Below are positions 357-28,985 of a stretch of DNA of 37,181 bases, piece after piece. The DNA comes from Pseudomonadota bacterium (lineage in GTDB: Bacteria; Pseudomonadota; Gammaproteobacteria; UBA5335): NCBI GenBank assembly GCA_021767745.1, contig JAASSS010000004.1, positions 1 through 37,181 of the forward strand, written 5' to 3'. Numbering within the stretch: position 1 is the stretch's first letter; the number at the start of each line of letters is the position of its first letter. The notes under the pieces were generated by a model, which was not told the origin of the DNA, made no database searches, and saw only the letters and a program-made list of their open reading frames with translations. Both the position numbers and the translations under genes were made by a program.

Positions 357-641
357 ATGGCCGAGTTCCCGATCGAGCGCGAGGAGCAGGGCGAGGGCGG
401 GCGCTACCACGCCTGCATCGACGGCCACGAGGTGGAGATGACCTATCGGCTGGCTGACGCCAGCACGATGGTGATCGACCACACCTTCGTGGCGCCAGCG
501 CTGCGCGGCCGGCAGGTCGGCGAGGCGCTGGTGGCCCGGAGCGTGGCCGATGCCCGGCGGGAGGGTCGGCGCATCGTGCCGGTCTGCAGCTTCGTCAAGG
601 CGCAGCTCGCGCGCCATCGCGACTGGCAGGACGTGCTCTAG
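357..641 (+). CDS. Small GNAT-like N-acetyltransferase (YjdJ/COG2388 type)
   Basis: A 94-residue protein whose start is fixed by AGGAG at 347-351, five bases before the ATG; longer in-frame starts would run into upp in another frame. It resembles the minimal GNAT fold of the YjdJ/COG2388 group: a beta-rich N-terminus (MTYRLADASTMVIDHTFV), then the acetyl-CoA pyrophosphate loop VAPALRGRQVGEALV at about residues 43-57, and a C-terminal VPVCSFVKAQLARH segment typical of these small proteins. In that family the substrate is generally unknown, so no reaction is assigned. It is convergent with the glycosidase gene on the other strand: the TAG stop at 639-641 overlaps that gene's last codon, at 638-640, by two bases. 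Confidence 0.8.
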   Translation: MAEFPIEREEQGEGGRYHACIDGHEVEMTYRLADASTMVIDHTFVAPALRGRQVGEALVARSVADARREGRRIVPVCSFVKAQLARHRDWQDVL

Positions 642-2689
642 CCGGCCCGGCCCCGGGGCCGGCGGCGCAGCACCACCTGCAGTCGGCCGGCCTGCAGCGC
701 GCGCAGCTGCAGGCACTGACCGTCGGCGCGCAGCGCTTCCTGTCCCGGTGCCTCCAGCGAATAGCCGTGGGGAAAGTGCCGGGCCGGCACGTGGATCTCG
801 CTCGGCGCGGGCAGCGCCGGATCGGCGTCGAAGGCGAGCGTGAACTCGCCCCGCCGCCGGTCGAAGTGCATGCCGGCGAGCCGGCCCTGCACGGCGCGCG
901 GGTAGGGCCGCACGAAGCCGTCCACGGCGCGGCCGCCGCTGTCCGGGTCGGTCGGATCGTGCTGCTGGTCGCGCGAGAAGATGCTCAGATCTTCCTGATT
1001 CCAGCCGTCGCCGATCGCCGGATCGTTTCGGTTGCTGGCCGTGTAGTTCCACTGCGTGGCGCTGAGCAGCAGGTCATCGAGCGCCTCGTAACAGATCTCC
1101 AGCGCGCGCACGTGCCGCCGCCACACGCGGGCATCGCCCGGGTGGCGGGCATCGTCGCGATAGGCGCGCCCACCGGCGAGATCGAAGGGCAGGCCGAACT
1201 CGCCGATCAGGGTCGCGCAGCCCGCCGGCCGACCGGCCGCGACGATCTCCTGCAGCCGCTCGCGATAGTTCGCCAGGTGCGCCTGCCGCCCCGCCAGCAG
1301 CCGGCCACGTTCCAGGTCGACGCCCAGCGGGTACAGGTGGCGCTTGAGCAGCAGGGTGGTGATGTCGTAGCAGTGCCCGGCGTTGACCGTCGCGGCCGGC
1401 AGGTGCCGGGGGAAGGCCCGTGCCGGATCGCCGGCCAGCAGGTCCGGCTCGGCGAAGATCAGCCAGTCCGGATTGTGGCGGCGCAGATTGGCTGCGCCTG
1501 CTGCGTAGAAGGGGGCGAGGTAATCCTCGGTGAAGTCCACCTGCCGGCCGTGGCGCTGGCGGAAGTAATCCTCCTGCAGCGCCTCGGCCTCGGCGCCGTT
1601 GCGCCGCCAGGCGCCGGCGGCGGCGAAGGGATCGGCGGCGCCATCGCGCCAGATCGAGACGCCTTCGGGATTCATCTGCCGGGTGCCGGTAGTCACCACG
1701 CCGCGGCGCAGCACCGAGATGGCCATCATCGGTACTGCGCGCGGCAGACCGCTGCCGGCCGCCAGGCAGTCGAGCGGTGACCAGGCCGGGCCGGGCAGCA
1801 CCGGGCGCGGATCCTCGGCCGTCGCGGCGGTGTGGCGATGCGAGAGCGGCCGACCGATCCAGCCGGCGTTGGGCTCGTTCAGCAGGTCGAAGCCGATGAC
1901 GTGCCCCAGGCCGGCGAGCCGTCCGGCCAGTGCCGCCTGGGCGCCGAAGAAGTGCTGCTGCAGGTAGTCCTGCACGTTGCGCCCCTCGATCGTGAACTGC
2001 GGGGCGAAGTCGCGGCCGCCGAAGAACAGCGTCCAGAGGATGCCGTTGGCCGCCAGGCCGTAGTTGCTCGGCCAGCTCATCTGCGGGTAGTTGTCCGGCT
2101 GGCGCGGGCGTGGATCGGCGTAGTCGTACTCGTGCTGCATGACGAAGGCGGCGCCGGCGGCGGCCAGCCGGGTATGGTCGAGCCCGACCGCCGCCAGCGT
2201 CCAGCCCGGTGCGCCGTCGCCGCCCGTCAGCCGGCTCCAGACGTCCTGGTGGAAGTCGACGTAGACGTACAGGCCGAAGTGCCCGGCCCGTGCGCACAGC
2301 TCCGTGAAGTAGTCGAGATAGGCGGTGTCGTACTGGCCCGGGCCGGCATGCTCGATCGCTTCCCAGCTCGTCAGCAGGCGCAGGCAGTTGAAGCCCCAGT
2401 GCCGCAGGCGGCCGAAATGCTCGTCCGCCTCGCCGAGCGGGAACGGGCGGCCGATGAAGCTGACGCTGCGGTGATCGGTGAAGCGGCTCGGCACATGGGT
2501 GCCGCCGTTCGGGTAGGGCAGCTTGCAGTCGCCGCCGAGGTTCACGCCGCGCAGCAGCACCTCCCGGCCACTGGTGTCGAGGAAGCGCCCCGCCTCGATG
2601 TGCAGCGGGCCGGGCGGACAGCTGCCGAGCATCCCGGCGCTCTCGGCGCGCCTGGAAGGCGGGGCGTGTTGCGGATCAGGCGTGACCAT
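638..2689 (-). CDS. GH5 family beta-glucosidase, glucosylceramidase/steryl-glucosidase-like
   Basis: A 683-residue glycoside hydrolase family 5 protein. The N-terminal barrel opening (RGVNLGGDCKLPYPNGG), WGFNCLRLLTSWEAIE and YVDFHQDVWSR match the endoglycosylceramidase/EGCrP branch (GH5_12 in my judgement). The acid/base is probably E272 in FDLLNEP and the nucleophile E497 in LIGEFG, both in canonical context. The last ~90 residues look like a C-terminal beta-sandwich. No signal peptide is visible, so it is predicted cytoplasmic. Characterised fungal relatives remove glucose from glucosylceramide or sterol glucosides; the substrate here is unknown. The ATG at 2689 is chosen because it falls 52 bases after the upstream gene; ATG at 2632 is an alternative. 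It is probably cotranscribed with the Pat-like gene. A plain endoglucanase is less likely given the long family-specific insertions. Confidence 0.85.
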   Translation of the reverse strand: MVTPDPQHAPPSRRAESAGMLGSCPPGPLHIEAGRFLDTSGREVLLRGVNLGGDCKLPYPNGGTHVPSRFTDHRSVSFIGRPFPLGEADEHFGRLRHWGFNCLRLLTSWEAIEHAGPGQYDTAYLDYFTELCARAGHFGLYVYVDFHQDVWSRLTGGDGAPGWTLAAVGLDHTRLAAAGAAFVMQHEYDYADPRPRQPDNYPQMSWPSNYGLAANGILWTLFFGGRDFAPQFTIEGRNVQDYLQQHFFGAQAALAGRLAGLGHVIGFDLLNEPNAGWIGRPLSHRHTAATAEDPRPVLPGPAWSPLDCLAAGSGLPRAVPMMAISVLRRGVVTTGTRQMNPEGVSIWRDGAADPFAAAGAWRRNGAEAEALQEDYFRQRHGRQVDFTEDYLAPFYAAGAANLRRHNPDWLIFAEPDLLAGDPARAFPRHLPAATVNAGHCYDITTLLLKRHLYPLGVDLERGRLLAGRQAHLANYRERLQEIVAAGRPAGCATLIGEFGLPFDLAGGRAYRDDARHPGDARVWRRHVRALEICYEALDDLLLSATQWNYTASNRNDPAIGDGWNQEDLSIFSRDQQHDPTDPDSGGRAVDGFVRPYPRAVQGRLAGMHFDRRRGEFTLAFDADPALPAPSEIHVPARHFPHGYSLEAPGQEALRADGQCLQLRALQAGRLQVVLRRRPRGRAG

Positions 2690-2741: not shown

Positions 2742-5423
2742 TTATGCGGCCTCGAGCATGAGGGTGGCACGCATGATCGATGCGCCCTCGGGGGAGGTTC
2801 TGATCGTGAAGCCCAAGTCCCGGCAGATGCGCAGCATCGGCCGGTTCTGCGCCAGGATCTCGCCATAGATCTCGCGATAGTCCCGACTGCGGGTGTAGTC
2901 GATGATCGCGCGCATCAGCCGGGTGCCGAGGCCCTGGCCGGCGTAATCGTGGCGCACGGAGATGCCGAATTCGGCGCGTTCGTTGTTGGGGTCGCCGGCG
3001 ATGCGGGCGCCACCGACGATCTCCGCCTGCCCGGGCGGCTTGCGCTCGGCGATCACCAGCGCCATCTCCCGGTCGTAGTCGATCTGCGACATGCGCGCGG
3101 CGAGCTGATGCGGGAACTTCGGCATCGGCGAGAAGAAGCGCATGTAGCGTTCCTCGTCGGTGAGCGACTCGAACAGCCGCACCAGCGCCGGCTCGTCCTC
3201 CGGCTGGATCGGCCGCAGCAGCATCTCCTGGCCGTCGCCGAGCTTGAACGGCCGCTCGAGCTCCTGTGGATAGGGGCGGATGGCGAAGCGGGTGCCCGGC
3301 GCCGGTGGGCCGATGCGCACGCGCGCATCCAGCGCCAGCACGCCGCGCTCGTCCGCCAGCAGCGGGTTGATCTCGATCTCCTGCACCACGTCCTGGTCGG
3401 CGACCAGTTGGGCGAGCTTGATCAGCGTCAGCGCGATGGCGTCGCGGTGGGTGCGTGGCAGGCCGGGGGCGCCGTCCAGCAGCTGGCTGACGCGGGTGCG
3501 ATCGATCAGCGAGCAGGCGAGGGTCATGTTCAGCGGCGGCAGCTCGAAGGCGGTGTCCTTGACCAGCTCCACCGTGGTGCCGCCCTGGCCGAACAGGACC
3601 ACCGGGCCGAAGGTGGGATCGTGACTGACGCCGCAGATGAGCTCGTGTGCGTGCGCCCGGCGCACCATGGGCTGGACGATGAAGCCGCTCAGCCGCGCCG
3701 TGGGCATCTTCGCCGTCAGCCGCTGGTGCATGGCCTCGGCCGCCTCGCGTACCGCGGCCGGGGTCTGCAGGTTCAGTGCCGCGCCACCCACGGCGCTCTT
3801 GTGGACGATGTCCGGCGAGACGATCTTCAGCGCATAGGGTGCCGGCAGCCGTTCGGCCTGCCGCGCCGCGGCCTCGGCGTCGGTGGCCGGCAGCGTCTCC
3901 ACGCACGGGATCTGATAGTGGCCGAGCAGCGCTGCGGTGGCGGTCGGGTCGAGCCAGGCGCCGCCAGCCTCCAGCGCCTCCCGCAGCAGCCGGCGGGCTG
4001 GCGCCGCGGCCGGCAGGAAGTGCTCGGGCAGCGAGGCCGGCGTCTCCAGCAGCAGGCGCTGGTTGCGGCGGAAATTGACCATGTGCACGAACGCCCGCAC
4101 CAGCTGGTCGGGCGTCTCGTAGGTCGGGATGTGATGCTCGGCGAACAGGCGCCGCGCCGGCCCGGCGGCGTCGATGCCGAGCCAGTTGGTCAGCACCGGC
4201 CGGCGGCTGTTGCCGATGGCATCGATCACCGCCTGGGCCGCATCCAGGCCGGTCGTGACCGCGATCGGGCAGTTGAACACGGCCACCGCGTCCACCTCGC
4301 GCGCCTTGATCAGCACCTCCATGGCCGCCCGGTAGCGCGCCGGCGGCGCATCGCCGAGGATGTCCACCGGGTTGTCGACCGTGCACAACGGCGTCAGCCG
4401 TTCGGCCAGGGCCTGGCGGGTCGCCGGCTCCAGCGGCGCCGGCTGCCCGCCCACGCGCACCAGGTCGTCCACCGCCAGCACGCCGATGCCGCCGCCGTTG
4501 GTCAGCAGCGCCAGCCGATCGCCGAAAATGCGCGGGCTGTGGGCGAGCGTCTCCACGGCGTCGAACAGTTCGGTGAGCGAATCCACGCGCAGCATGCCGG
4601 CGCGGCGGAAGGCGGCATCGTAGACGGCATCGGCGCCGGCGAGATTGCCCGTGTGCGAGGCCACGGCCTGCGCCGCATGCGCGTTGCGCCCGCCCTTGAC
4701 CACGATCACCGGCTTGATGCGCGCGGCCGTGCGGGCGGCGGACATGAACTTGCGCGCGTGGCGGATGGACTCGACGTACATCAGCACGGCGCTGGTGTCG
4801 TGGTCCTGTGCCAGATAGTCCAGCAGGTCGCCGAAGTCGACATCGCTCATCGCGCCGAGCGAGATCAGGTGCGAGAAGCCGATGCGCCGCCCGTTCGCCC
4901 AGTCGATCACCGCCGTCATGATGGCGCCGGACTGCGAGATGAAGGCCAGTTTGCCGGGCAGCGCCATGCGGTGCACGAAGCTGGCGTTCAGCCCCACGCC
5001 GGGCACCACCACGCCCAGGCAGTTCGGGCCGATGATGCGCAGCAGATGCGGTTGGGCGGCCCGCAGCGCCTCGGCCTGCAGTTCGCTGCCGGCCTGATCC
5101 TGCAGTTCGCCGAAGCCGGCTGACAGCACCACCGCCGCCCGCGTCCCGCGGGCGCCGAGCTGGCTGAGGATGCCCGGCACGTCCGGCGCCGGCACCACCA
5201 CCACCGCCAGTTCCGGCGCCTCGGGCAGTTCGTCGATGCCGCGGTAGACATCCTGCGCCGGCACGGTCGCCAGACGCTGGTTCACCCGCATCAGGCGCCC
5301 GGTGTAGCCGCCGGTCTGCAGGTTGTGCGTCACCACGCCGCCGACCGAGCGCGGATCGCGGCTGGCGCCGATGATGGCGACCGAGCGGGGATGGAAGAAA
5401 TAGTCCAGATTGCGCGTCGTCAT
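2742..5423 (-). CDS. Pat/YfiQ-like protein: ADP-forming acyl-CoA ligase domains plus C-terminal GNAT acetyltransferase
   Basis: An 893-residue protein, close to E. coli PatZ (886). In order: CoA-binding Rossmann domain (~1-125, FHPRSVAIIGASRDPRSVGG), two succinyl-CoA-ligase-like domains (~150-460), ATP-grasp domain (~485-705, ALKIVSPDIVHKSAVGG and QEIEINPLLA), and GNAT domain (~730-890) with the acetyl-CoA loop HDYAGQGLGTRLM. PatZ homologues acetylate lysines, for example in acetyl-CoA synthetase. Unusually, the ligase part keeps the SHTGNLAG loop with His257, the phosphohistidine of active ADP-forming acyl-CoA synthetases, so it could still make acyl-CoA and ATP. The start at 5423 precedes the conserved FHPRSVA block by 10 residues; ATG at 5462 is possible, and neither has a strong ribosome binding site. 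The GH5 gene follows 52 bases downstream. Confidence 0.88.
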   Translation of the reverse strand: MTTRNLDYFFHPRSVAIIGASRDPRSVGGVVTHNLQTGGYTGRLMRVNQRLATVPAQDVYRGIDELPEAPELAVVVVPAPDVPGILSQLGARGTRAAVVLSAGFGELQDQAGSELQAEALRAAQPHLLRIIGPNCLGVVVPGVGLNASFVHRMALPGKLAFISQSGAIMTAVIDWANGRRIGFSHLISLGAMSDVDFGDLLDYLAQDHDTSAVLMYVESIRHARKFMSAARTAARIKPVIVVKGGRNAHAAQAVASHTGNLAGADAVYDAAFRRAGMLRVDSLTELFDAVETLAHSPRIFGDRLALLTNGGGIGVLAVDDLVRVGGQPAPLEPATRQALAERLTPLCTVDNPVDILGDAPPARYRAAMEVLIKAREVDAVAVFNCPIAVTTGLDAAQAVIDAIGNSRRPVLTNWLGIDAAGPARRLFAEHHIPTYETPDQLVRAFVHMVNFRRNQRLLLETPASLPEHFLPAAAPARRLLREALEAGGAWLDPTATAALLGHYQIPCVETLPATDAEAAARQAERLPAPYALKIVSPDIVHKSAVGGAALNLQTPAAVREAAEAMHQRLTAKMPTARLSGFIVQPMVRRAHAHELICGVSHDPTFGPVVLFGQGGTTVELVKDTAFELPPLNMTLACSLIDRTRVSQLLDGAPGLPRTHRDAIALTLIKLAQLVADQDVVQEIEINPLLADERGVLALDARVRIGPPAPGTRFAIRPYPQELERPFKLGDGQEMLLRPIQPEDEPALVRLFESLTDEERYMRFFSPMPKFPHQLAARMSQIDYDREMALVIAERKPPGQAEIVGGARIAGDPNNERAEFGISVRHDYAGQGLGTRLMRAIIDYTRSRDYREIYGEILAQNRPMLRICRDLGFTIRTSPEGASIMRATLMLEAA

Positions 5424-7497: not shown

Positions 7498-7522
7498 CCC
7501 CCGCGCGCTCAGTGCGCGGGGG
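7498..7522 (-). terminator. Perfect 9-bp hairpin over the glk stop codon
   Basis: CCCCCGCGC (7498-7506) and GCGCGGGGG (7514-7522) pair perfectly around a 7-base loop that contains part of the glk stop codon. It lies between the convergent alcohol dehydrogenase and glk genes, where a bidirectional terminator would be expected, but neither side carries a T-run. It may act with Rho or protect mRNA 3' ends. Confidence 0.35.
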
Positions 7523-8525
7523 CGGCCTGTGCCAGGCGCATGGCGGCCCGTTCGGCGCCGCGCAGGCCGACGTCGGGATCGAGCACCAGGTGCACCGGCA
7601 TCCGCGCGATCAGCCGGCCCATCCGGCCCTTGTCGTGCATGGGCTGCAGAAAGTCATCGCTGTGCATGCGCTCGCGGAGGTGGCCGGCGACGCCGCCGGC
7701 GATGTAGATGCCGCCGAAGGGCAGACACTGCAGCGCGGCATTGCCGACGAAGGCGCCGTAGGCGTTGAGGAACAGCCGCACCGCGCCGACCGCCACCGCA
7801 TCGCTGTCCGCCAGCGCCAGCCGCGTGATGACCGGGGCGGCATCCTCGCCGTCGAGTGCCTGCGCCAGTTCCGCGCCGGCCGCTTCGCGCGCCGCCAGGA
7901 ACTGCGCGATCCGCACCAGGCCGGCGCCGGAAACCACCCGTTCCACGCTCACCCGGCCATGTTCGGCCAGCAGCTCGCGCCACAACGCGATTTGCGCCTC
8001 GCCGAGCGGCGCGAAGTCGATGTGCCCGCCCTCGCTCGGCAGCACCTCGTCCTGCCCCGGTTCGCCGACCAGGATCGCCTGGCCGAGGCCGGTGCCGGCG
8101 CCGACCACCAGCCGCGGCGCCCCGGCCTGCGCATTTGCCGCCTGCAGCGTCAGTAGCTGCGCGGGAGGCAGCGCCGTCACGCCGAGCGCGGTGGCCTCGA
8201 AGTCGTTCAGCAACGCCACCCGACCGACTGGCAGATCCGCCGCCAGGCGCTCGGGATGCAGGTGCCAGGGCAGGTTGGTCAGCCGGCGCCCGCCGTCGTC
8301 GGCCGTCGGCCCGGCCACGGCGAAGCAGGCGCCGGCGGGATCCTCGCCCGCCAGCTGCGCCTTGACCTGCGGCCGAGTGAGAAAGTCGAGCACCAACTCG
8401 CGCAGGTGCGGGTAGTCACCGCTGGGCAGCCGGGCCTGATGCAGGCAGCGCGGCCCGTCGGCTTCCAGCCGGCAGATCGACAGCAGCGTCTTGGTACCGC
8501 CGACGTCTCCTGCAAGCACTAGCAT
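7509..8525 (-). CDS. glk: Glucokinase
   Basis: A 338-residue ATP-dependent glucokinase of the bacterial Glk family (not ROK). ATP-binding phosphate-1 loop: AGDVGGTKTLL (residues 5-15). The catalytic base is D108 in LLNDFEATALGV. The GAGTGLGQA motif (143-151) and SEGGHIDFAPLGE (164-176) are diagnostic of the family, and GGIYIAGGVA (271-280) closes the adenosine site. It phosphorylates free glucose to glucose-6-phosphate. The start at 8525 is supported by GAAGGAA at 8531-8537. Its place beside the glycogen genes fits reuse of the glucose that MalQ releases, an inference from context. It is convergent with the alcohol dehydrogenase gene; the four-cysteine protein gene lies upstream on the same strand, 95 bases away. 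Confidence 0.95.
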   Translation of the reverse strand: MLVLAGDVGGTKTLLSICRLEADGPRCLHQARLPSGDYPHLRELVLDFLTRPQVKAQLAGEDPAGACFAVAGPTADDGGRRLTNLPWHLHPERLAADLPVGRVALLNDFEATALGVTALPPAQLLTLQAANAQAGAPRLVVGAGTGLGQAILVGEPGQDEVLPSEGGHIDFAPLGEAQIALWRELLAEHGRVSVERVVSGAGLVRIAQFLAAREAAGAELAQALDGEDAAPVITRLALADSDAVAVGAVRLFLNAYGAFVGNAALQCLPFGGIYIAGGVAGHLRERMHSDDFLQPMHDKGRMGRLIARMPVHLVLDPDVGLRGAERAAMRLAQAAPAH

Positions 8526-8620
8526 CGTTGTTCCTTCGCCTCTTGCCCCAGGGGTTGCGCCCAGCCTAACGAAAACACCCGGCCATGGGGCCGGGCTGTG
8601 GTGCCGCCGCCGGCGGCGGC

Positions 8621-8827
8621 TCAGCGAATCCAGTCGGCACGCAGCTGCTGGCACTCCTGCCACCAGCGACAGTCCGATTCCTCGCAGACGTGGCGTCGTT
8701 CGGTGGCGAAGCAGATTGCGTGTCCGGCACGTTCCTGCGACTGCCAGATCTCCCAGCGGCGCTGTACCCAGTCGGTCCGGCCGGACTCGGGTCGGCGGGA
8801 GGATTCGTTCGGTTCGGCCGTCATCAT
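8621..8827 (-). CDS. Small four-cysteine hypothetical protein
   Basis: A 68-residue protein with no function I can assign. The translation start is credible: GGGGAG lies about seven bases before ATG at 8827 (a second ATG follows directly). The C-terminal half has four cysteines in the pattern ICF...HVCEESDC...QEC within about 20 residues, plus several tryptophans (WVQRRWEIW, CRWWQEC), which suggests a small metal-binding or disulfide-stabilised fold. No signal peptide or membrane segment is visible. It sits between glk and the SDR gene in the same direction, with 49 bases separating it from the SDR stop, so it may be part of their transcript. Confidence 0.6.
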   Translation of the reverse strand: MMTAEPNESSRRPESGRTDWVQRRWEIWQSQERAGHAICFATERRHVCEESDCRWWQECQQLRADWIR

Positions 8828-8876
8828 TTCGTCTCTCCCCGGCGCACCGCCTGTCGCGGAATGCGCTGCTCGGCGT

Positions 8877-9620
8877 TCATTGACAGGTATAGCCGCCGTC
8901 GACCACCAATTCAGATCCCGTCATGTAGCTGGCGGCGTCGCTGGCCAGGAAGGCGACAGGACCGGCGATTTCCTCCGGCCGTGCCGGCCGCTTGAGCAGC
9001 GTGGGGCCGAGCAGTTCGCCCGGACCGGCCTTGCCCACGTGCTGCGTCATCGGGGTATCGACCACGCCGGGATGCACGGAGTTCACGCGGATGCCGTAAG
9101 GGGCGAGCTCGGCGGCGGCGTTCTTCGTCAGCAACCGCACCGCGCCCTTGGTGGCCTGATAGGCACCCGCGCCGGCCGGGCCGACGAGCCCGTAGATCGA
9201 GGAGAGGTTGACGATGGCGCCGCCGCCTGCGCTGCGAAGGGCAGGGGCCGCGGCCTGGATGCCGAGGAACACCCCACGCGCGTTGACGGCGAAGATGTGG
9301 TCCCACTCCTCGACGCTGGTCTCCAGCAGCGGGCGCAGCAGCAGGATGCCGGCGTTGTTGACCAGCACGTCCAGGCGCTGGTGCCGCGCCAGCACGAGGT
9401 CCACCGTGCGCCGCCAGGCGGACGCGTCGGTGACGTCGAGCGGCATGGCCTCGGCGCGGCCGGGCAGCTCCATGCCGTCGGCCACCGCGACGGCGCTGGC
9501 CTCGTCGGCGTCGGTGACGATCACATGGCCGCCGAGCGCCGCGAACTGGCGCGCGCAGGCGGCGCCGATACCGCTGCCGGCGCCGGTGATGAGGATGATC
9601 TTGTGGTCGAAGCGGATCAT
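8877..9620 (-). CDS. SDR family oxidoreductase
   Basis: A 247-residue classical short-chain dehydrogenase/reductase. Visible signatures: cofactor loop TGAGSGIG (12-19), Asp37 after beta-strand 2 (VIVTDAD), which favours NAD(H) over NADP(H), NNAG (88-91), catalytic Ser in NLSSIYG (about 140-141), YxxxK as Y154/K158 in AYQATKGA, and the C-terminal YMTGSELVVDGGYT typical of 3-oxoacyl-reductase or sugar/alcohol dehydrogenase members. The substrate cannot be read from the sequence. The start at 9620 is four residues before the first beta-strand; the upstream ATG at 9674 would add a poorly conserved tail, and no clear ribosome binding site separates them. glgA lies 76 bases upstream on the same strand. 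Confidence 0.92.
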   Translation of the reverse strand: MIRFDHKIILITGAGSGIGAACARQFAALGGHVIVTDADEASAVAVADGMELPGRAEAMPLDVTDASAWRRTVDLVLARHQRLDVLVNNAGILLLRPLLETSVEEWDHIFAVNARGVFLGIQAAAPALRSAGGGAIVNLSSIYGLVGPAGAGAYQATKGAVRLLTKNAAAELAPYGIRVNSVHPGVVDTPMTQHVGKAGPGELLGPTLLKRPARPEEIAGPVAFLASDAASYMTGSELVVDGGYTCQ

Positions 9621-9696
9621 GGCGGACTCGCGAGCTGGGATGTCCTCCCATGCTCGACGGGCCGGCGCAGGCATACGTTGATGCAGGTCAAACGGC

Positions 9697-11157
9697 TCAG
9701 GTTCGGGCGAGACGTGTCATCGCCGCTTCATAGACCTCCACGTAGGCGCGGGCGCTGCGCTTCCAGCCGAAGTCCGCGTTCATGCCCCGCGCCTGCAGTT
9801 GCCGCCAGGCCTGCGGCTGGCGGAACAGCGCCAGGGCATGCTCGATGGCCGCGCCAAGGGCCTCGGGCGTCTGCTGATCGAAGACGAAGCCGGTGCCGGC
9901 AGCCGGCGCGGCAGTGACATCCACCACGCTGTCGGCGAGTCCGCCGCAGCGATGCACGACGGGTGGGGTGCCATAGCGCAGGCTGTAGAGCTGGTTGAGC
10001 CCGCAGGGCTCGAAGCGCGAGGGCATCAGGAACAGATCGGCCGCCGCCTCCAGCCGGTGCGCCAGCGCCTCGTCGAAGCCGATCTGCACCGCGACGCGGC
10101 CCGGGTAGGCCGAGGCGAGATCGCGCAGCCGCTGTTCCAGCGCGCTCTCGCCGCTGCCCAGCACGGCCAGCTGCACGGCGCCGCGGTTGAGCAGATCCGG
10201 CAGTGCCTGCAGCACCAGATCGACACCCTTCTGCGGTACCAGCCGGCTGATCATGACCAGCAGCGGCATATCGGCCGCCACCTCCAGCCCCAGTGCCTGC
10301 TGCAGGTGCTGCTTGGTCTGGCGCTTGCCCGCCAGATCCTGCACCGAAAAATTGGCCGGCAGGTGAGGATCGCTGCGCGGATCCCACTCGTCTGGATCGA
10401 TGCCGTTGAGAATGCCGACCAGGTCCTCCCGGCGGTGGCGCAACAGGCCGTCGAGGCCCTCACCACGCGCCGGCGTGCAGATCTCCTCGGCGTAGGTCGG
10501 GCTCACGGTGGTGAGCATGTCGGCGAATACCAGTCCGCCCTTGATGAACGACAGGTCGCCATAGAACTCCAGCGCATCGGCATGCCAGAGATAGCTCGGC
10601 AGGCCGAGCCGATGCAGCGTCTGTGGCTCGAAGCGGCCGTGATAGTTGAGGTTGTGCACCGTGAAGATGCTGGCTGCCGGCACGCGCCGCTGCTGCATCC
10701 ACACCGGCACCAGACCGGTCTGCCAGTCGTTGCAGTGCACCACGTGCGGTCGCCAGACGGTGCCGGCGCGACCGGAGGCCAGCGCGGTGGCGATGCGGCA
10801 GAAGGCGTTGAAGCGAACGGCATTGTCCGGCCAGTCCTGGCCGTGTTCGTCCAGATACGGCGAGCCGCGCCGGTCGCTGAAGCCCGGCCCGGAGGCCAGC
10901 CACAGGCGGATGCCGTCGGTGCGTCGCCGGGGCGTCAGCAGCTGCCAGTCCTCGAAGCCGGCCGGCGCGCGGAAGCGGTGCACCGGCCGCAGGGACTGCT
11001 CGCCGGCAAGGATGTCACCGTAGGCCGGCAGCAGCACGCGCACGTCGTGCCCCAGCGCGGCGAGCGCCTTGGGCAGCGCGCCGGCGACGTCGGCCAGGCC
11101 GCCCGTCTTGATCCATGGCTGCACTTCACTGGCGATGAACAGGATACGGTGGCTCAT
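9697..11157 (-). CDS. glgA: Glycogen synthase (ADP-glucose dependent)
   Basis: A 486-residue GT5 glycosyltransferase (E. coli GlgA has 477) that adds glucose from ADP-glucose to alpha-1,4-glucan. The N-terminal ADP-glucose motif KTGGLADV is at residues 17-24, [11 protein letters not shown] at 141-151, the GT-B second Rossmann domain begins near [11 protein letters not shown] (303-313), and the catalytic Glu of the EX7E motif is E383 in [17 protein letters not shown]. The start at 11157 is supported by GAGGGAG just upstream. It is divergent from glgC across 180 bases, so synthesis of ADP-glucose and its polymerisation can be controlled together. Its 3' side is followed by the SDR gene in the same direction. 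Confidence 0.97.
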
Positions 11158-11337
11158 GCGGCTCCCTCGCGTGTTGGGGCAGATGGTGGAAACCTGGGCG
11201 GCGGCTGGCACTCTATAGCAAGGCCGTCCCGGCGCGCCGATGCCGCCGGCGCTGGGTGTATCGAGCCCGGCGCCCGTCGCGGGTTCCTCGGCCGGCACGC
11301 ACCATGGACTATCGACCGCTCACGGAGAGTCACCCGG
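11158..11337. promoter_or_regulatory. Divergent glgA/glgC control region
   Basis: These 180 bases must carry promoters for both glgA (minus) and glgC (plus). The one AT-rich spot is a CTATAG palindrome at 11213-11218. Read on the minus strand it gives TATAGA (11217-11212), a fair -10 for glgA, but no good -35 is seen at 16-18 bases. The glgC ribosome site GGAGAG is at 11324-11329. I see no clear operator repeat. Confidence 0.35.
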
Positions 11338-12609
11338 ATGCAGATCAACCCGTCGCAACGTTTCATCAGCCTGGTCACCAAAGACACCCTCGCCCTGATC
11401 CTGGCCGGTGGCCGGGGTAGCCGGCTGGGGGATCTGACCAACCAGCGCGCCAAGCCGGCGGTGCCCTTCGGCGGCAAGTTCCGCATCATCGATTTCCCGC
11501 TCTCCAACTGCGTCAATTCCGGTATCCGCCGCGTGGCGATCCTCACGCAGTACAAGGCACACTCGCTGATCCGCCACCTGCAGCAGGGCTGGGGCTTTCT
11601 CCGCGGCGAGTTCGGCGAGTTCATCGAAGTCTGGCCCGCCCAGCAGCGGGTCGGCGAGATGTGGTATCGCGGTACGGCGGACGCCCTCTACCACAACCTC
11701 GACATCATCAAGGCCCACAATCCCCGCTTCGTGCTCGTGCTGGGCGGCGATCACGTCTACAAGATGGACTACGGCACCATGCTGGGCTTCCACGCCCAAC
11801 ACCAGGCGGACGTGACGGTCGGCTGCATCACCGTGCCGCGGATGGAGGCGACGCCGTTTGGCGTGATGGGCGTGGACGAGGACGCCCGCATCGGTTTCTT
11901 CCAGGAGAAGCCGGCCGATCCGGCCTCGCTGCCGAACGACCCCGAGCGTGCGCTGGTGTCGATGGGTATCTACGTCTTCAACACCGACTACCTGGTGGCG
12001 ATGCTGGAGGAGGATGCCGCCCGTGCCGAGTCCAAGCACGACTTCGGCAAGGATATCGTCCCGCGGGCGCTGGAGCGCGGCCATGCCGCCTACGCCTATC
12101 CGTTCCAGAACACCGTGGGGCGTGGGCGCGCGTACTGGCGCGATGTCGGCACCATCGACGCCTATTGGGCGGCGAACATGGAGCTGATCGGAGTGACCCC
12201 CGAGCTGGACCTGTACGACGACTCCTGGCCGATCTGGACCTATCAGGAGCAGGCGCCGCCGGCGAAGTTCGTGCTCGACGAGGACGGCCGGCGCGGCACC
12301 GCCACCAATTCCATGGTGGCCGGCGGCTGCATCGTCTCCGGCGCCACCGTGCAGCACTCGCTGCTGTTCTCCAACGTGGTGGTCGAGGAAAAGGCGCTGG
12401 TGCGCGATTCGGTGGTGCTGCCGCGGGCCCGCATCGGTACCGGTGCCCGCGTCTGCAAGGCCGTGATCGAGAGCGGCTGCGTGATCCCGCCGCAGATGAG
12501 CATCGGTGAGGACGAGGCCGAGGACCGGCGCCGCTTCGAGGTGACCGACAAGGGCGTGGTGCTGGTCACCCCGGAGATGCTGCACCAGGAGCTGCCCTAC
12601 GTGCTGTAG
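11338..12609 (+). CDS. glgC: Glucose-1-phosphate adenylyltransferase (ADP-glucose pyrophosphorylase)
   Basis: A 423-residue enzyme (E. coli GlgC has 431) that makes ADP-glucose from glucose-1-phosphate and ATP, the committed step of glycogen synthesis. The nucleotide loop [14 protein letters not shown] is at residues 21-34, with the K39 region ([11 protein letters not shown]) matching the fructose-1,6-bisphosphate regulatory site, catalytic Asp138 in [11 protein letters not shown], and the glucose-1-phosphate-binding lysine K191 in FFQEKPADP. The C-terminal left-handed beta-helix begins around residue 320 ([14 protein letters not shown]). The start follows GGAGAG at eight bases. malQ follows on the same strand after 54 bases, suggesting a glgC-malQ transcript. 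Confidence 0.97.
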
Positions 12610-12663
12610 TCATACCTCAAGACCAGACCTGCGTTTCTCCCCCCTGCTGCGGAAGCGTCGTCT

Positions 12664-14169
12664 ATGGCCCAGTTCACTGACTGTCGTCGTGCCGGATTGC
12701 TGCTCCATCCCACCTCTCTGCCGGGCCCTGCCTGGCAGGGGCAGCTCGGGGCGCCGGCCCATGCGTTCATCGATTTTCTGGCCAGCGCCGGCGCCACGGT
12801 GTGGCAGACCCTGCCGCTGTGTCCGGTGGACAGCACCGGCAGCCCGTATCAGTCCAGTTCGGTCTTCGCCGGGGAGCCGGCGCTGATCGACCTGGAAGGA
12901 CTGGCCGCGCAGGGCCTGCTGGCGGTGGAAACGGTGCGCGCAGCGCTGGAGACCGGCTGCGATGCTCCGCAGCATCGGCGCCTGCTGGCGCAGGCCGCGG
13001 CGGCGTTGCCGCAGGCACCGGTGGCGCTGCAGGCCGAGTTCGCCCGCTTCTGCCAGGAAGAGGCCGGCTGGCTCGAACCCTATGCGCTCTTCCATGCGCT
13101 GCATGACCGGCTGGCGGCGCCGTGGTGGGCGTGGCCTGTCGGCCTGCGCGATCGCGAACCGGCGGCGCTGGCGCAGGCGGCGGACGAGCTCACCGGCGAA
13201 CTGCACACGCAGCGCTTCGAGCAGTTCGCCTTCGACGCACAGTGGCGCCAGCTGAAGCAGGCGGCCAACGCCCGCGACGTCCTGCTGTTCGGCGACATGC
13301 CGATGTTCGTGGCGCACGACAGCGCCGATGTATGGGCCAACCGCGAGCTGTTCCACCTCGACGGTGAGGGGCACATGACGCGGGTCGCCGGGGTGCCGCC
13401 GGACTATTTCTCCGCCGACGGCCAGCTGTGGAACATGCCGCACTACAATTGGCCGGCCATGGCGAGCGACGGCTACGCCTGGTGGACGCGGCGGCTGGCC
13501 CGCCAGCGCCAGTGGTTCGACCTGATCCGCATCGACCACTTCCGCGGCTTTGCCGCCGCCTGGGCGGTCGCGCCCGGACAGTCGACGGCGCGCGAGGGCC
13601 GTTGGGAGCCGGGGCCGGGCGCGGCGATGTTCCACACGCTGGCCGAGCGCCTCGGGCCCCTGCCGCTGGTGGCAGAGGATCTGGGCTTGATCACGCCGGA
13701 CGTTGACGCCCTGCGCGACTCGTTGGACCTGCCGGGCATGCGGGTGTTGCAGTTCGCCTTCGACGGCGATGCCGGCAACGTGCATCTGCCGCACAATCAC
13801 GTGCGCAACGCGATCGTTTACACCGGCACGCACGACAATCCCACGGCGCTCGGCTGGTGGGCGGGACTGGACGCGGCGGCGCGCGCGCAGGTGCGCGACT
13901 ACCTGGGACCGGGCGATGAGGTCATGCCCTGGCTGCTGATCCGCCCGACGCTGGCCTCCGTGGCCGGCTGTGCCGTGCTGCCACTGCAGGATGTGCTCGG
14001 CCTCGGCGAGCAGGCGCGGCTCAACACGCCGGGCACCGCCGACGGCAACTGGTCGTGGCGCTACCCGCAGGGTGCGCTCGACCCGTCGCTGGCCGAGCGG
14101 CTGCGGCATCTGTTTGCCCTGTACGGCCGGCTGCCGGACTCCACGGCGCCGGCAGCCGCGGCGGACTAG
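12664..14169 (+). CDS. malQ: 4-alpha-glucanotransferase (amylomaltase)
   Basis: A 501-residue GH77 enzyme that transfers alpha-1,4-glucan segments between oligosaccharides and releases glucose. It has the short (Thermus/plant DPE1-like) length, not the long enterobacterial form. N-terminal motif GLLLHPTSLPGP (11-22), substrate loop GSPYQSSSVFAG (59-70), nucleophile D291 in IRIDHFRGF, acid/base E338 in VAEDLGLITPDV, and transition-state Asp D391 in YTGTHDNPTALGWW are all intact. The start follows a GGAAG about nine bases upstream. It lies downstream of glgC and converges on glgP: its TAG stop is read from the same CTAG that gives the glgP stop. With GlgP it would recycle short maltodextrins. 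Confidence 0.97.
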   Translation: MAQFTDCRRAGLLLHPTSLPGPAWQGQLGAPAHAFIDFLASAGATVWQTLPLCPVDSTGSPYQSSSVFAGEPALIDLEGLAAQGLLAVETVRAALETGCDAPQHRRLLAQAAAALPQAPVALQAEFARFCQEEAGWLEPYALFHALHDRLAAPWWAWPVGLRDREPAALAQAADELTGELHTQRFEQFAFDAQWRQLKQAANARDVLLFGDMPMFVAHDSADVWANRELFHLDGEGHMTRVAGVPPDYFSADGQLWNMPHYNWPAMASDGYAWWTRRLARQRQWFDLIRIDHFRGFAAAWAVAPGQSTAREGRWEPGPGAAMFHTLAERLGPLPLVAEDLGLITPDVDALRDSLDLPGMRVLQFAFDGDAGNVHLPHNHVRNAIVYTGTHDNPTALGWWAGLDAAARAQVRDYLGPGDEVMPWLLIRPTLASVAGCAVLPLQDVLGLGEQARLNTPGTADGNWSWRYPQGALDPSLAERLRHLFALYGRLPDSTAPAAAAD

Positions 14170-16730
14170 CTCAGCCAGACCATCCGGCCGAGCTCGAAGG
14201 GATGGGCGAGGTCCGGGTGGTAGGGGAACACGCGTAGCTCGTAGCTGAACAGGCCGGTCTGCTCCAGCGGGATGTCCAGTTCGAACAGGGTCGCGCCGTC
14301 CTGCTCGCCGGCCGGCGTCAGCCGGTAGCACGCGGACTTGTCGAAGCCGCCATCCGGCTGCTCGGTGCCGACCACGCATTCCAGGCGCACGTCCTGGGGG
14401 CTCAGCCCGTTCAGGTGCGCCTGCACCCGCACGCGGAAGGCCTCCCCCCGTGCCAGTCGGCTGGTAGGTTCGTCCAGCCGCGCCAGACTGACGCCCTGCC
14501 AGCACTCACGCACCCGTTGCTTCCAGGCCGTGAGCGCGCGCGCGCGGCGCGCGTCGTCGGCCTGCAGCGAACGGGCGTGCTCCATCGCTGGCACGTAGAA
14601 GCCGTCGAGATAGTCCAGCAGCATGCGCTGGCTGTTGAACTCCGGCAGGATCGTCGCCATCGCGTGTTTCGAGCGGGCCACCCAGGCCGGCGAATAGCCG
14701 TGGTTGTTCTGCGCGAAGTAGGTCGGCACCACCTGGTGTTCGAGCACGTCGAGCAGATCGCGCGCTTCCTGCTGATCGCGCAGCTCCGCATCACCGTCCT
14801 CGCGGTGCGGCGTCAGGCCCCAGCCGTTGTCGCCATCGCAGATCTCCGGCCACCAGCCGTCCAGCACGCTGACGTTGAGCACGCCGTTCAGTCCCGCCTT
14901 CTGGCCCGAGGTGCCGCAGGCCTCCTTCGGGTACTGCGGCGTGTTGATCCACACGTCGACCCCGCTCACCAGCTTGCGGCCGAGCGCAAGGTCGTAGTTC
15001 TCGATGAAGAACAGCTTGCCGAAGAACGGCGGCGTGGCCGCCAGTTCGTTGATGCGCCGGATCAGTGCCTGCCCTGGCTCGTCGGCGGGATGGGCCTTGC
15101 CGGCATAGAGCAGCACCACCGGGCGCTGGGGATCGTTCAGCAGCGCCGCCAGCCGCTCGGTCTCGCGCAGCAGCAGCGTCGCCCGCTTGTAGGTGGCGAA
15201 GCGGCGGGCAAAGCCCAGCACCAGCGGCTTGGGGCCGTTGGGGTCGAGGCGGGCGAGCGCGCGCTCGCGATGCGCCTCGCTGGCATCGTTGCGCCGGTAC
15301 TGCTGGTCCAGTGCCTGACGCACGAAGCTCAGGGTGCCGCTCTTGATCGTCTGGCGCACGTGCCAGAAATTCTCGTCCGGCAGCGTCTCCACCACGTGCT
15401 GCCAGAAGGCCCGGTCGGTGAGCCGGTCGCGCCAGCCGACGAAGCGCATGTCGAACAGCTGGGTCCATTCCTGGGCGAGGAAGGTGCTCACGTGCACGCC
15501 ATTGGTGACATGGCGGATCGGATTCTCCGCCGGCGGCACCTGCGGCCAGTGATAGGCCTCCATCTGCGCCGCCACCTCGCCGTGAATCGCGCTGACCCCG
15601 TTGTGGTAGCGCGAGCCACGCAGGCCCAGCGCCGTCATGTTGAAGGCGTGCTCGTGTGCCGGCGAGCTGCCGAGCTGCAGCAGCGTCTCCACCGGCACCT
15701 GCAGCTCCTGCGCGAACGGCGCCAGATAGGGCCGGATCAGGTCGTGCTCGAACATGTCATGACCGGCCGGCACCGGCGTGTGGGTGGTGAACACCGTGGC
15801 GCCGGCCACCGCTTCCAGCGTCGGCGCGAACGGCAGGCCGCCGCGTACGCTGCCGCAGCAGCGCTCGATGATGGAGAAGGTCGCGTGGCCCTCGTTGATG
15901 TGCCACACCGCCGGCTGCAGGCCGAGCGCATGCAGCGCCCGCACGCCGCCCACACCCAGCACCATCTCCTGTGCCAGGCGGTTGCGGCGATCGCCGCCGT
16001 AGAGCTGGAAGGTGATGGACTGGTCCGCCGCCGTGTTCTCCGGCAGCGCGGTGTCGAGCAGGAGCAGCCGCAGGTTGCCGATCGCCACCTGCCAGACCTT
16101 CACCCGCACCGTGCGTTCGGCCATCGGCACCTGCACGTATACCTCGCGGCCATCGGCGTCGCGGGCCGGGGAGACCGGCAGGTCGCTCAGCGCGTGGGGC
16201 TGGTAGAGGGCCTGCTGCTGGCCGCTGGCGTCGATCGCCTGGCGAAAATAGCCCTGGTGATACATGAGCCCGACGGCGACGAAGGGCAAGCCGAGGTCGC
16301 TGGCCGCCTTGCAGTGATCGCCGGCCAGGATGCCGAGGCCGCCCGAGTAGATCGGCAGGCTCTCGTGCAGGCCGAACTCGGCACAGAAATAGGCGATCAG
16401 ATCGGACTCGGGCGTCACCTGATGACGTACGGCCCGGTGCAGTGCGTCGGTGTGGACCCGGTAGGTGCGATAGGCCGCGAGCGCGTATTCCAGCTCCTCC
16501 AGAAAGGTCGGATCGCTGGCCAGCGCGTCGAGGCGCTGCTGGTCGACCCGTCGCAGCAGGATCTTCGGGTTGTGGCCGCAGCGATCCCACAGGTCGCTGT
16601 CGATGTGGCGGAAGACGCGACGGACGCGTCGATCCCAGCTGTAGAGCAGGTTGTCGGCGAGCGTTTCCAGCCCGGCCAGCCGCTCGGGAAGCTGGGCCCG
16701 AACTTCCACGGCAAAACGTTTGGCAGTCAT
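14166..16730 (-). CDS. glgP: Glycogen/alpha-glucan phosphorylase
   Basis: An 854-residue GT35 phosphorylase of the long-divergent branch (TIGR02094 type, with an N-terminal DUF3417-like segment at about 8-118), distinct from E. coli GlgP. It releases glucose-1-phosphate from glucan using phosphate and pyridoxal phosphate; the PLP lysine is probably K611 in EACGTSGQKAGLNG. Other family blocks are IYSGGLGILAGDHCKAASDL (128-147) and HINEGHATF (277-285). The last ~100 residues look like a beta-rich extra domain. Of two adjacent ATGs (16733 and 16730) the second is preferred, because GAGG at the usual distance precedes it. It is transcribed towards malQ, with the two stops sharing CTAG. Confidence 0.95.
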   Translation of the reverse strand: MTAKRFAVEVRAQLPERLAGLETLADNLLYSWDRRVRRVFRHIDSDLWDRCGHNPKILLRRVDQQRLDALASDPTFLEELEYALAAYRTYRVHTDALHRAVRHQVTPESDLIAYFCAEFGLHESLPIYSGGLGILAGDHCKAASDLGLPFVAVGLMYHQGYFRQAIDASGQQQALYQPHALSDLPVSPARDADGREVYVQVPMAERTVRVKVWQVAIGNLRLLLLDTALPENTAADQSITFQLYGGDRRNRLAQEMVLGVGGVRALHALGLQPAVWHINEGHATFSIIERCCGSVRGGLPFAPTLEAVAGATVFTTHTPVPAGHDMFEHDLIRPYLAPFAQELQVPVETLLQLGSSPAHEHAFNMTALGLRGSRYHNGVSAIHGEVAAQMEAYHWPQVPPAENPIRHVTNGVHVSTFLAQEWTQLFDMRFVGWRDRLTDRAFWQHVVETLPDENFWHVRQTIKSGTLSFVRQALDQQYRRNDASEAHRERALARLDPNGPKPLVLGFARRFATYKRATLLLRETERLAALLNDPQRPVVLLYAGKAHPADEPGQALIRRINELAATPPFFGKLFFIENYDLALGRKLVSGVDVWINTPQYPKEACGTSGQKAGLNGVLNVSVLDGWWPEICDGDNGWGLTPHREDGDAELRDQQEARDLLDVLEHQVVPTYFAQNNHGYSPAWVARSKHAMATILPEFNSQRMLLDYLDGFYVPAMEHARSLQADDARRARALTAWKQRVRECWQGVSLARLDEPTSRLARGEAFRVRVQAHLNGLSPQDVRLECVVGTEQPDGGFDKSACYRLTPAGEQDGATLFELDIPLEQTGLFSYELRVFPYHPDLAHPFELGRMVWLS

Positions 16731-16800
16731 CATCACCTCGCGGGGGAGCGGGACGGGCGCCGGGGGGCGCACACCCGATCTTAACAAGGGTTAATGCGTA

Positions 16801-16836: not shown

Positions 16837-18026
16837 AGGAAGCGGAACAGCGAGAGGTTCTGGATACGGGTGAAGGCGGCCTGCGCCGCTTCCAGTCCCA
16901 CGAGGTCGAGGTTGAGCTGGCTGACCGCGCTGGCGATGTCGAGATCCTGCGTCTGCGAACGCAGCCGTTCGAGCTCCAGGCCCGTGTCTTCCAGTGCCAG
17001 TCGCTGGCGGTCGAGCGTGGTCAGCCGGCTGCCGATGCCGGCACGGATCTCGTTCAGCTCGCCGAGCGCGCTGTCGAAGCCGGCGAGCGCGGTGGCATAG
17101 GCCTGCTGCTGCTGCGCGGCGCCGGCGGCATCGCCGGCGGGAGCCAGCACCGCGGCCAGCGCGCCGTCGAGCACATCGAAGGCGCTGATCGCCCGGGCGG
17201 GTTCGATGGAGAAGCCATCCCCCGCGGCGGGTGCGCCTTCGATCGTCACGCTGATGCCGGCCACGGCGAGCGGTTCGCCCGCCACGTAGGGGCCGGCAGC
17301 GATCAACCCGCCACCGCCGTCGCGCACCTCGTAGGCATCGGCTGCAGTGAAGCGGATCTCGAAGCTGGCGTTGGCGTAGAGCGTCGCATCGGTGACCACG
17401 CCCGGGCCGATGCGGCCCGTACCGGTATTGGTTGCCGCCGGCGCCGCGACGAACTGGCCGTTGCCCGGGCGCACGCGCATGAACACCGCCTCGCCGCTGT
17501 CGCCGATGGCGATCTGCCGACCCTCGCCCAGCGCGAGCCGCGGCTGGCCCTGATCGCCCCGGTAGCTGACCTCGCCCGCCGTGCGCACGAACGGTGCCTG
17601 CTGGCTGGCGTAGCCGCCGAACAGATAGTTGCCGTTGCCGTCGGTGGTGTTGGCGAGCGCCAGCAGGTCGGCCTGCAGACCGGCGAGCTCCGCCGCGATC
17701 GCCTCGCGTCCGGCGGCATCCTGCACGCCGCTGTTGGCCTGCAGGGTCAGCTCGCGCGCCCGGTTGAGCACATCCCCCGCCGCGGCGAGGGTGTCCTCTT
17801 CCAGTTGCAGGCTGCCCTCGGCGCGATCGATGTTGCCCTGGTAGCGCGCCAGCTCGGCCAGGGCGCCGCCCAGCTCGCTGACGCGGGCGGCGCCGAGGGG
17901 ATCCTGCGCCGCGGTGGTGAAGCGGACGCCGCTGGCGATCTGCTGCTGGGTGCGCAGCAGCTTCGCCTGCTGATCGAGCAGGGCCTGCAGCGCCTGCTGC
18001 TGGGCGGAACTGGTGGCGACGCGCAT
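16830..18026 (-). CDS. flgL: Flagellar hook-filament junction protein FlgL
   Basis: A 398-residue hook-associated protein 3. N-terminal coiled D0/D1 region (MRVATSSAQQQALQALLDQQ, then QIASGVRFTTAAQDPLGAAR) and the C-terminal heptad-rich region (RLTTLDRQRLALEDTGLELE ... LFRFLG) flank a variable centre, as in flagellins. Residues about 210-275 hold a beta domain ending IEGAPAAGDGFSI, closely similar to one in FlgK. The start ATG shares its first base with the last base of the flgK stop (TGATG), a sign of translational coupling. It is exported by the flagellar type III system and forms the ring between FlgK and the filament. Confidence 0.95.
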   Translation of the reverse strand: MRVATSSAQQQALQALLDQQAKLLRTQQQIASGVRFTTAAQDPLGAARVSELGGALAELARYQGNIDRAEGSLQLEEDTLAAAGDVLNRARELTLQANSGVQDAAGREAIAAELAGLQADLLALANTTDGNGNYLFGGYASQQAPFVRTAGEVSYRGDQGQPRLALGEGRQIAIGDSGEAVFMRVRPGNGQFVAAPAATNTGTGRIGPGVVTDATLYANASFEIRFTAADAYEVRDGGGGLIAAGPYVAGEPLAVAGISVTIEGAPAAGDGFSIEPARAISAFDVLDGALAAVLAPAGDAAGAAQQQQAYATALAGFDSALGELNEIRAGIGSRLTTLDRQRLALEDTGLELERLRSQTQDLDIASAVSQLNLDLVGLEAAQAAFTRIQNLSLFRFLG

Positions 18027-19885: not shown

Positions 19886-19906
19886 GGCGTGGCCGGGTGG
19901 TTGGTA

Positions 19907-21996: not shown

Positions 21997-22001
21997 GGGA
22001 T

Positions 22002-23478: not shown

Positions 23479-23503
23479 ATCGGTTCTCCGTCGGGCGTCG
23501 CCG

Positions 23504-24244: not shown

Positions 24245-24261
24245 GGGTGCCTCCCTCCGGT

Positions 24262-25476: not shown

Positions 25477-25505
25477 GGTTGACTCCTGTTGGTGTTCTTG
25501 TCGGA

Positions 25506-26192: not shown

Positions 26193-26194
26193 GC

Positions 26195-26608: not shown

Positions 26609-26613
26609 GATGA

Positions 26614-27003: not shown

Positions 27004-27040
27004 GGTGTCGCCACCTCTGCCCAGCATTCGCAGCTCAGGC

Positions 27041-27056: not shown

Positions 27057-27162
27057 GTGACAGGCGGCGGCCGACGGACGGTAGCGGCAGGTGGTCAGGC
27101 GGTAGGAAAGCAGGAACGGGGGCGGCACGCCGGGGCGCGCCGTGCTGCGTCCGGCCCGGACG

Positions 27163-28539: not shown

Positions 28540-28546
28540 GGCGGTG

Positions 28547-28966: not shown

Positions 28967-28985
28967 GGCACCAGGCTCCGATGGG

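Follow-up and report, generated by a model that had tools for sequence, protein, structure and literature searches.

An Sgl1-like, GH5_12-type protein in a gammaproteobacterial family with no detected route to glucosylceramide or steryl glucosides

The DNA studied here, the whole 37,181-nucleotide stretch of contig JAASSS010000004.1 (assembly GCA_021767745.1) from a gammaproteobacterium of lineage UBA5335, is referred to as the window. At positions 638-2689 its minus strand carries a gene for a glycoside hydrolase of family 5 (GH5), which an earlier note made from the sequence alone had placed in the EGCrP/Sgl-like branch of that family. This placement was borne out, as the fungal sterylglucosidases Sgl1 and SglA are the closest solved enzymes both by sequence and by fold. 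We computed the homology, the fold and the conserved sugar site of the protein, found the gene in all six genomes of the window's family and detected no trace there of either of the two classical lipid pathways. On balance we favour the interpretation that the protein is a cytoplasmic, retaining β-glucosidase of subfamily GH5_12 with Sgl1 architecture, acting on a hydrophobic mono-β-glucoside other than self-made glucosylceramide or self-made steryl glucoside; its activity, its cytoplasmic location and the hydrophobicity of the aglycone are predictions.

Sequence, fold and active site of the GH5 protein

The GH5 frame runs from an ATG at 2689 to a stop codon at 638-640, encodes 683 amino acids (aa) and contains no internal stops. 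It stays open upstream as far as an ATG at 2866. The true start is probably the ATG at 2632, giving 664 aa: in five family relatives the frame, taken at its greatest length, starts no more than a few residues from this position. Judged by its conservation, the frame is not a chance open reading frame (ORF), given 61-67% identity to the proteins of the other five genomes of the window's family, 141 relatives and homology to two solved structures. A crude hydropathy scan revealed no strongly hydrophobic N-terminal stretch, which is consistent with the earlier proposal that the protein lacks a signal peptide and acts inside the cell; a cytoplasmic location is likely. Features of the gene are given below, with equivalences to Sgl1 residues taken from the alignment:

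641-2632, minus strand: probable true coding part of the GH5 protein, 664 aa without stop, based on relatives' frames (the originally read 638-2689 adds 19 N-terminal residues and the stop)
2237-2425, minus strand: PF00150 (Cellulase; GH5 barrel), best-matching part, residues 89-151 in 683-aa numbering, above the Pfam gathering score
734-910, minus strand: PF18564 (Glyco_hydro_5_C), C-terminal β-sandwich, residues 594-652, above the Pfam gathering score
2522-2524, minus strand: Lys56, equivalent to Sgl1 Lys47, glucose contact
2249-2251, minus strand: His147, equivalent to Sgl1 His142, glucose contact
1874-1876, minus strand: Glu272, equivalent to Sgl1 Glu270, catalytic, acid/base by analogy
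1199-1201, minus strand: Glu497, equivalent to Sgl1 Glu520, catalytic nucleophile
1001-1003, minus strand: Trp563, equivalent to Sgl1 Trp584, cap Trp blocking a second sugar

When PDB sequences were searched with the GH5 protein, Cryptococcus Sgl1 (4.8e-80) and Aspergillus SglA (4.6e-78) were followed by bacterial endoglycoceramidases (EGCases) at 2.9e-16 or weaker; no cellulase, and nothing beyond these enzymes, was retrieved at an E value of 0.01. A six-sequence profile again ranked SglA (1.2e-98) and Sgl1 (4.2e-94) first, with endoglycoceramidases at 4.3e-24 and weaker and, in the lower ranks, a GH5_22 xylosidase (5.3e-7) and cellulases (9e-5 or weaker). Among solved structures Sgl1 and SglA lead other GH5 enzymes by more than 60 orders of magnitude in these searches, and it is from this ranking that we infer the formal subfamily label GH5_12 for the window protein. 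The NCBIfam model NF051847 (endoglycoceramidase I) scored 97 bits, below its cut-off of 700 bits; as the cap Trp is also present, an identity as endoglycoceramidase I was dismissed.

An AlphaFold model of the protein (pLDDT 88.6, pTM 0.92) takes in the C-terminal β-sandwich. Both fungal sterylglucosidases were closest to it in Foldseek, and VIA-align 2 gave Z 36.7 over 598 residues to SglA (8exd), Z 36.4 over 615 residues to Sgl1 (7lpo) and Z 30.1 over 424 residues to EGCase II. In the model, the extra aligned length relative to EGCase II is consistent with a cap common to Sgl1 and the window protein, the cap being described as the part that distinguishes Sgl1 from EGCase (PMC8497620). An ordinary GH5 cellulase was rejected, since cellulases stood far below Sgl1 by sequence (PDB and profile searches) and by fold (Foldseek and VIA-align), in line with the distinction from ordinary cellulases drawn in the earlier note.

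For Sgl1, the glucose-site and catalytic residues are described as Lys47, His142, Asp144, Asn269, Glu270, Tyr453, Glu520, Trp570 and Glu587, and Trp584 as a wall that blocks a second sugar and limits the enzyme to one (PMC8497620). The window protein matches Sgl1 at all ten positions (Lys56, His147, Asp149, Asn271, Glu272, Tyr441, Glu497, Trp547, Glu566 and Trp563), as do 84 of 84 prokaryotic rows, His being present in 83 with an X in the remaining one. Two sequences (L023, L091) whose called starts lie apparently too far upstream were excluded from the alignment (A2). Four pocket residues have been mutated in Sgl1. The window protein retains two of them, Leu431 and Leu458, and has Val in place of Leu290; Ala470 pairs with Pro in the pairwise alignment, in a column that is unsure, as MAFFT places a different Sgl1 residue there. 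Of the 84 rows, 81 have Leu at position 458; positions 290 and 431 vary freely. At the level of the alignment, the site that holds the glucose is fixed and much of the aglycone side is free to change; this combination points to a prokaryotic branch of single-glucose β-glucosidases with differing aglycones.

We propose that the enzyme is built from a TIM barrel, a large cap and a C-terminal β-sandwich, and that Glu272 (acid/base) and Glu497 (nucleophile) would cleave off a single β-linked glucose. Trp563 in the cap would block longer sugar chains, and the aglycone would sit in a pocket diverged from the fungal one. The products would be the aglycone and glucose, with glucose passing to glucokinase and possibly into glycogen.

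Lipid pathways of the host family and distribution of the gene

Exactly one α-oxoamine synthase (AOS) was found at 1e-10 in each of the six family genomes, above the bioF cut-off; as this search gave no second enzyme at 1e-10, serine palmitoyltransferase (SPT) was not detected in any of the six. Squalene-hopene and oxidosqualene cyclases (SHC/OSC; PF13243) were likewise found in none of the six, the control search giving matches in two of 14 known genomes. Because neither SPT nor SHC/OSC was detected in the six genomes, it appears unlikely that glucosylceramide or a steryl glucoside is made in the window's family, which agrees, for self-made lipids, with the earlier expectation that such compounds are not common in such bacteria. 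Two candidate substrates were rejected as likely ones on these grounds: self-made glucosylceramide in view of SPT, and self-made steryl or hopanoid glucoside in view of SHC/OSC. Completeness of the family genomes was 99% for G001, 96% for G002 and 95%, with 7% contamination, for G005.

The same AOS search returned one to three enzymes in 14 of 15 other GH5_12 carriers. In an AOS tree, five carriers (Caulobacter, Sphingomonas, Sphingopyxis, Solimonas and Hydrocarboniphaga) have SPT-type enzymes; that of Caulobacter, the only carrier SPT compared with the PDB, matched PDB SPTs at 1.5e-142. SPT is thus present in at least five of the 15 carriers, 30 of the 32 AOS hits having become loci and two weaker hits (G070, G066) having been left unclassified. 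By these sequence comparisons, the presence of GH5_12 is not generally tied to sphingolipid synthesis.

A glucosylglycerol-like compound, also put forward in the earlier note, fared less well. Known bacterial glucosylglycerol is α-linked and GH5 enzymes act on β bonds; GT20 family enzymes occur in four of the six family genomes; the window's own genome, which is 82% complete, yielded none. Glucosylglycerol is disfavoured on both counts. Squalene/phytoene synthase family members (PF00494) are present in five of the six genomes, given which the aglycone may be a C30/C40 isoprenoid, and an endogenous glycolipid is a possible substrate.

The GH5 gene was found in six of six genomes of the window's family and in none of three from another family of the order. 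Within the class, three of 369 sampled genomes matched the protein at 1e-30, all of them from the window's family; this figure understates the spread in Gammaproteobacteria, as the sample contains no Nevskiaceae match despite known carriers. One class genome (G015) gave two weak, short matches (1.9e-8 and 3.2e-6), perhaps to an endoglycoceramidase-type relative. The 80 relatives retained of the 141 found in named genomes come mostly from Alphaproteobacteria; the others belong to Nevskiaceae (Nevskia, Solimonas, Hydrocarboniphaga and Stenotrophobium), to Binatota and to a single Asgard-type archaeal bin. Caulobacter, Brevundimonas, Sphingomonas and Rhizobium are among the carriers, and the window protein is 47-67% identical to the 83 other prokaryotic rows collected.

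The earlier description of a fungal-type gene in a gammaproteobacterium is partly right. That the gene would be an oddity of one gammaproteobacterium is not supported: it is one twig of a large prokaryotic branch that is common in Alphaproteobacteria and includes some Nevskiaceae, and a GH5_12 clade "dominated by bacterial enzymes" is on record since Aspeborg et al. 2012 (PMC3526467), even though the introduction of a 2025 paper (PMC12061408) calls EGCrP2/Sgl1 confined to fungi. Bacterial membership of GH5_12 is not new, and the window protein is a further member of a known bacterial branch. No characterised bacterial GH5_12 enzyme was recognised in the open-access literature searched.

A tree of 86 rows, rooted on two long fungal branches, was calculated by a quick search without bootstrap, L013 being excluded. 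It joins the window protein with those of its own family (support value 98), then with a gammaproteobacterial bin (99), then with Binatota and one archaeal row on a long branch (99); this group is nested in a wider set dominated by Parvibaculaceae/Rhodobiaceae. The simplest reading of these sequence data would be a transfer of the GH5_12 gene into the window's family from outside Gammaproteobacteria. The archaeal row (L054; JAUQYZ010000092.1) stems from a bin labelled Candidatus Sigynarchaeum, an Asgard archaeon, and its GH5_12-type gene, on the long branch beside Binatota and the window's family, may reflect cross-domain transfer or contamination.

Gene neighbourhoods and a possible glucosyltransferase partner

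Genes near the GH5 gene in the window are as follows:

2742-5420, minus strand: ADP-forming acyl-CoA ligase carrying a fused GNAT domain, upstream of the GH5 gene and 52 bp from the ATG at 2689
7509-8534, minus strand: glucokinase, predicted to phosphorylate released glucose, within the glycogen-gene group
9697-11298, minus strand: glgA
about 11323-12609, plus strand: glgC
12664-14169, plus strand: malQ
14166-16787, minus strand: glgP, DUF3417-type

The acyl-CoA ligase/GNAT gene had no match in the relatives' stretches searched and so probably has no functional link to the GH5 gene. Neighbours of the AMP-ligase and enoyl-CoA hydratase kind, members of large superfamilies or drawn from close relatives, were not taken as evidence; the family loci L014 (G003) and L011 (G005) are nearly identical. 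Glucokinase and the glycogen genes (7509-16787) lie about 5-14 kb from the GH5 gene. In family genome G005, glgC, glgB, glgA and malQ are also near it; in G001, G002 and G004 no glycogen genes were found within about 14 kb, as far as the contig stretches examined reach. An OmpW gene is located just upstream of the GH5 gene in three of the six family loci, two of the other three contigs ending before that place. Neither an MFS_2 nor an ABC importer gene was found near the GH5 gene in any of the six.

Three further observations concern these genomes. A flagellar cluster occupies 18026-36936 of the window, with flgK, a flgJ-type gene, flgI, FlgE/F/G-type rod/hook genes, flgD, fliD, a FleQ-like sigma-54 regulator, fliF and fliG. 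The window contig has about 71% GC, and its assembly is incomplete at 1.93 Mb. In family genome G004 (C17; L012:3680-11795), the GH5 gene is directly adjoined by what looks like a complete type I Zorya defence operon (ZorA, ZorB, ZorC and ZorD).

Neighbours in other lineages were tallied over 80 loci with a home-made ORF picker, clusters being named from one representative each and groups assigned by hand after the tree had been seen; L092, L015, L066 and L089, in which the picker called no GH5 ORF, were excluded, as was L013, which shares a contig with L012, and eight loci end next to the GH5 gene on one side. Of the 33 loci scored in the basal part of the tree, 19 carry a gene for a GPH-type MFS_2 or an ABC sugar importer within three called genes of GH5, directly adjacent in 16 of them (13 MFS_2, three ABC sugar-binding protein). 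Within the same distance are carboxylesterases (11), TonB receptors (5), tannases (4) and a GH78 rhamnosidase (1). The other alphaproteobacterial/Binatota group has a transporter nearby in 4 of 41 loci, in each case a generic ABC ATPase. Importer-linked carriers include Hydrocarboniphaga and a Brevundimonas strain; in Parvibaculum indicum no importer was scored beside the gene. The GH5_12 enzyme of the basal lineages looks catabolic, and the importer neighbours in those genera point to exogenous substrates there. In two Rhizobium loci (L052, L062) and one from Lichenibacterium (L046), the GH5_12-type gene and the genes of an ABC sugar importer (binding protein and permeases) are direct neighbours in divergent orientation; these loci are a good lead to a GH5_12 substrate in a culturable host.

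A GT1 glucosyltransferase matching TIGR01426 (MGT) above cut-off is present in six of six family genomes and in none of three sisters of the order. In the class it occurs in 5 of 274 genomes, three of these from the window's family. One of 30 other GH5_12 carriers has it above cut-off, the nearest gammaproteobacterial relative L015 (G389), with weaker matches in six others. The window's genome has its copy on contig C121, similar to YjiC and to UDP-glucosyltransferases of the OleD type. Where seen, GT1 and GH5 genes are unlinked: they lie on different contigs in five family genomes and about 163 kb apart in G002, the assemblies being fragmented. In four family genomes (L153:2937-12069; L151, L154 and L158), an MGT/YjiC-like GT1 gene adjoins a sulfotransferase-like gene (PF13469) and one for a VTT-domain membrane protein, three of these loci also lying beside metK-ahcY-metF; the cassette perhaps serves a sulfated glycolipid.

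Alternative explanations and comparison with known systems

Several points weigh against the interpretation favoured here. (i) The window's genome is 82% complete and single absences are weak, so that the case from missing pathways rests on the six genomes together. (ii) A GT21-like family that includes glucosylceramide synthase (PF13506) matched weakly (best 7.5e-8), above the Pfam cut-off, in five of the six family genomes; because it also matches in 9 of 14 control genomes, this signal is too unspecific to alter the verdict on glucosylceramide. (iii) The fold match is partly generic, ordinary GH5 enzymes and endoglucanases still reaching Z 22-24 in VIA-align 2. (iv) Confidence in the model drops to low or modest values in some loops around the active site: model residues 38-48 and 137-141 have pLDDT values below 50, and averages of 58 and 63 were obtained for the 10-residue blocks containing Lys56 (model residue 37) and Trp563 (model residue 544). 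(v) Glycogen genes are near GH5 in two of five family contigs with usable flanks (the window and G005), and no neighbour of the GH5 gene is conserved in all members of the family. (vi) A phenolic aglycone fits equally as well as a lipid, because GH5_12 also includes a yeast flavonoid β-glucosidase (PMC3526467).

One alternative is the catabolism of imported glucosides, whether plant or algal phenolic, saponin-like or steryl, in which uptake would be followed by removal of glucose in the cytoplasm and then by burning or storage. We regard this as a serious contender, if somewhat short of an even chance. It draws on the importers adjacent to or near GH5 in most basal loci, on the carboxylesterases, TonB receptors, tannases and rhamnosidase also found within three genes, and on OmpW in half of the family loci. 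However, the lack of such transporters near GH5 in the six family loci, and the 4 of 41 loci of the other group with a generic ABC ATPase, mark dedicated importers as a trait of other lineages. The enzyme might instead turn over a self-made hydrophobic β-glucoside to which a MGT/YjiC-type GT1 UDP-glucosyltransferase adds the glucose that the GH5 enzyme removes. That GT1 occurs throughout the family, is rare in the class, recurs in the nearest relative and is YjiC/OleD-like in the window's genome is consistent with such a pair, which we nevertheless consider doubtful: the two genes are unlinked, their overlap amounts to one or two evolutionary events, and 29 of 30 other carriers have no GT1 above cut-off, so GT1 is no general partner. 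In fungi, a steryl glucoside cycle consists of a GT1 enzyme and Sgl1 (PMC9698648). By analogy, a YjiC/MGT-type GT1 would make a hydrophobic β-monoglucoside from which a Sgl1-type GH5_12 would strip the glucose, mirroring the fungal sterol glucosyltransferase/Sgl1 pair. It is a rather long shot that in this family such a cycle serves a membrane or signal compound not yet recognised, whose aglycone is neither a sterol nor a sphingolipid, e.g. an isoprenoid or a hydroxylated fatty compound.

If the protein were a genuine sterylglucosidase or glucosylceramidase, its substrate being steryl glucoside or glucosylceramide that the cell either makes or scavenges, this would account for sterylglucosidases being the closest solved enzymes and for the identical sugar site. 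We consider it improbable given that no SHC/OSC and no SPT were detected in the six genomes and that pocket positions 290 and 431 vary across relatives, though for a scavenged substrate it may still hold. An ordinary GH5 cellodextrinase or endoglucanase would share the GH5 barrel and the PF00150 match; with cellulases so far below Sgl1 in sequence and fold and with the cap Trp conserved, we give it hardly any weight. A cytoplasmic GH5_12 β-glucosidase for a hydrophobic mono-β-glucoside other than the two self-made lipids remains the reading we prefer. As the enzyme occurs where no route to either known lipid substrate was detected, the question of what bacterial GH5_12 enzymes act on becomes directly testable with recombinant protein. 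Moreover, because the sugar site and cap Trp are the same in 84 prokaryotic sequences, inhibitors designed against the glucose-binding end might act on bacteria as well.

Among known systems, Sgl1/EGCrP2 of Cryptococcus neoformans (GH5_12; 7LPO, 7LPP and 7LPQ) shares with the window protein the domain plan, the catalytic Glu pair, the glucose contacts and the cap Trp584, with 36% identity over 544 residues and the alignment to 7lpo given above. The fungal chain is longer, the window protein has Val for Leu at 290 and aligns ambiguously at 470, and its host has no detected sterol cyclase. SglA of Aspergillus fumigatus (8EXD) shares the features common with Sgl1, differs in the same points and is the best VIA match, tied with Sgl1. 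The endoglycoceramidases (EGCase II, 2OSX, GH5_28; EGCase I, 5J14) also have a GH5 barrel with β-sandwich and an equivalent catalytic Glu pair (PMC8497620). They are, however, described as extracellular (PMC3526467) and as having an open active site for oligosaccharide chains and no such cap (PMC8497620), and about 420 residues of EGCase II align to the window model as compared to 598-615 for SglA and Sgl1. The bacterial GH5_12 clade of Aspeborg et al. 2012 (PMC3526467) is most probably the branch to which the window protein belongs; most members of this branch are alphaproteobacterial, and the basal ones, unlike the window's family, often lie beside importers.

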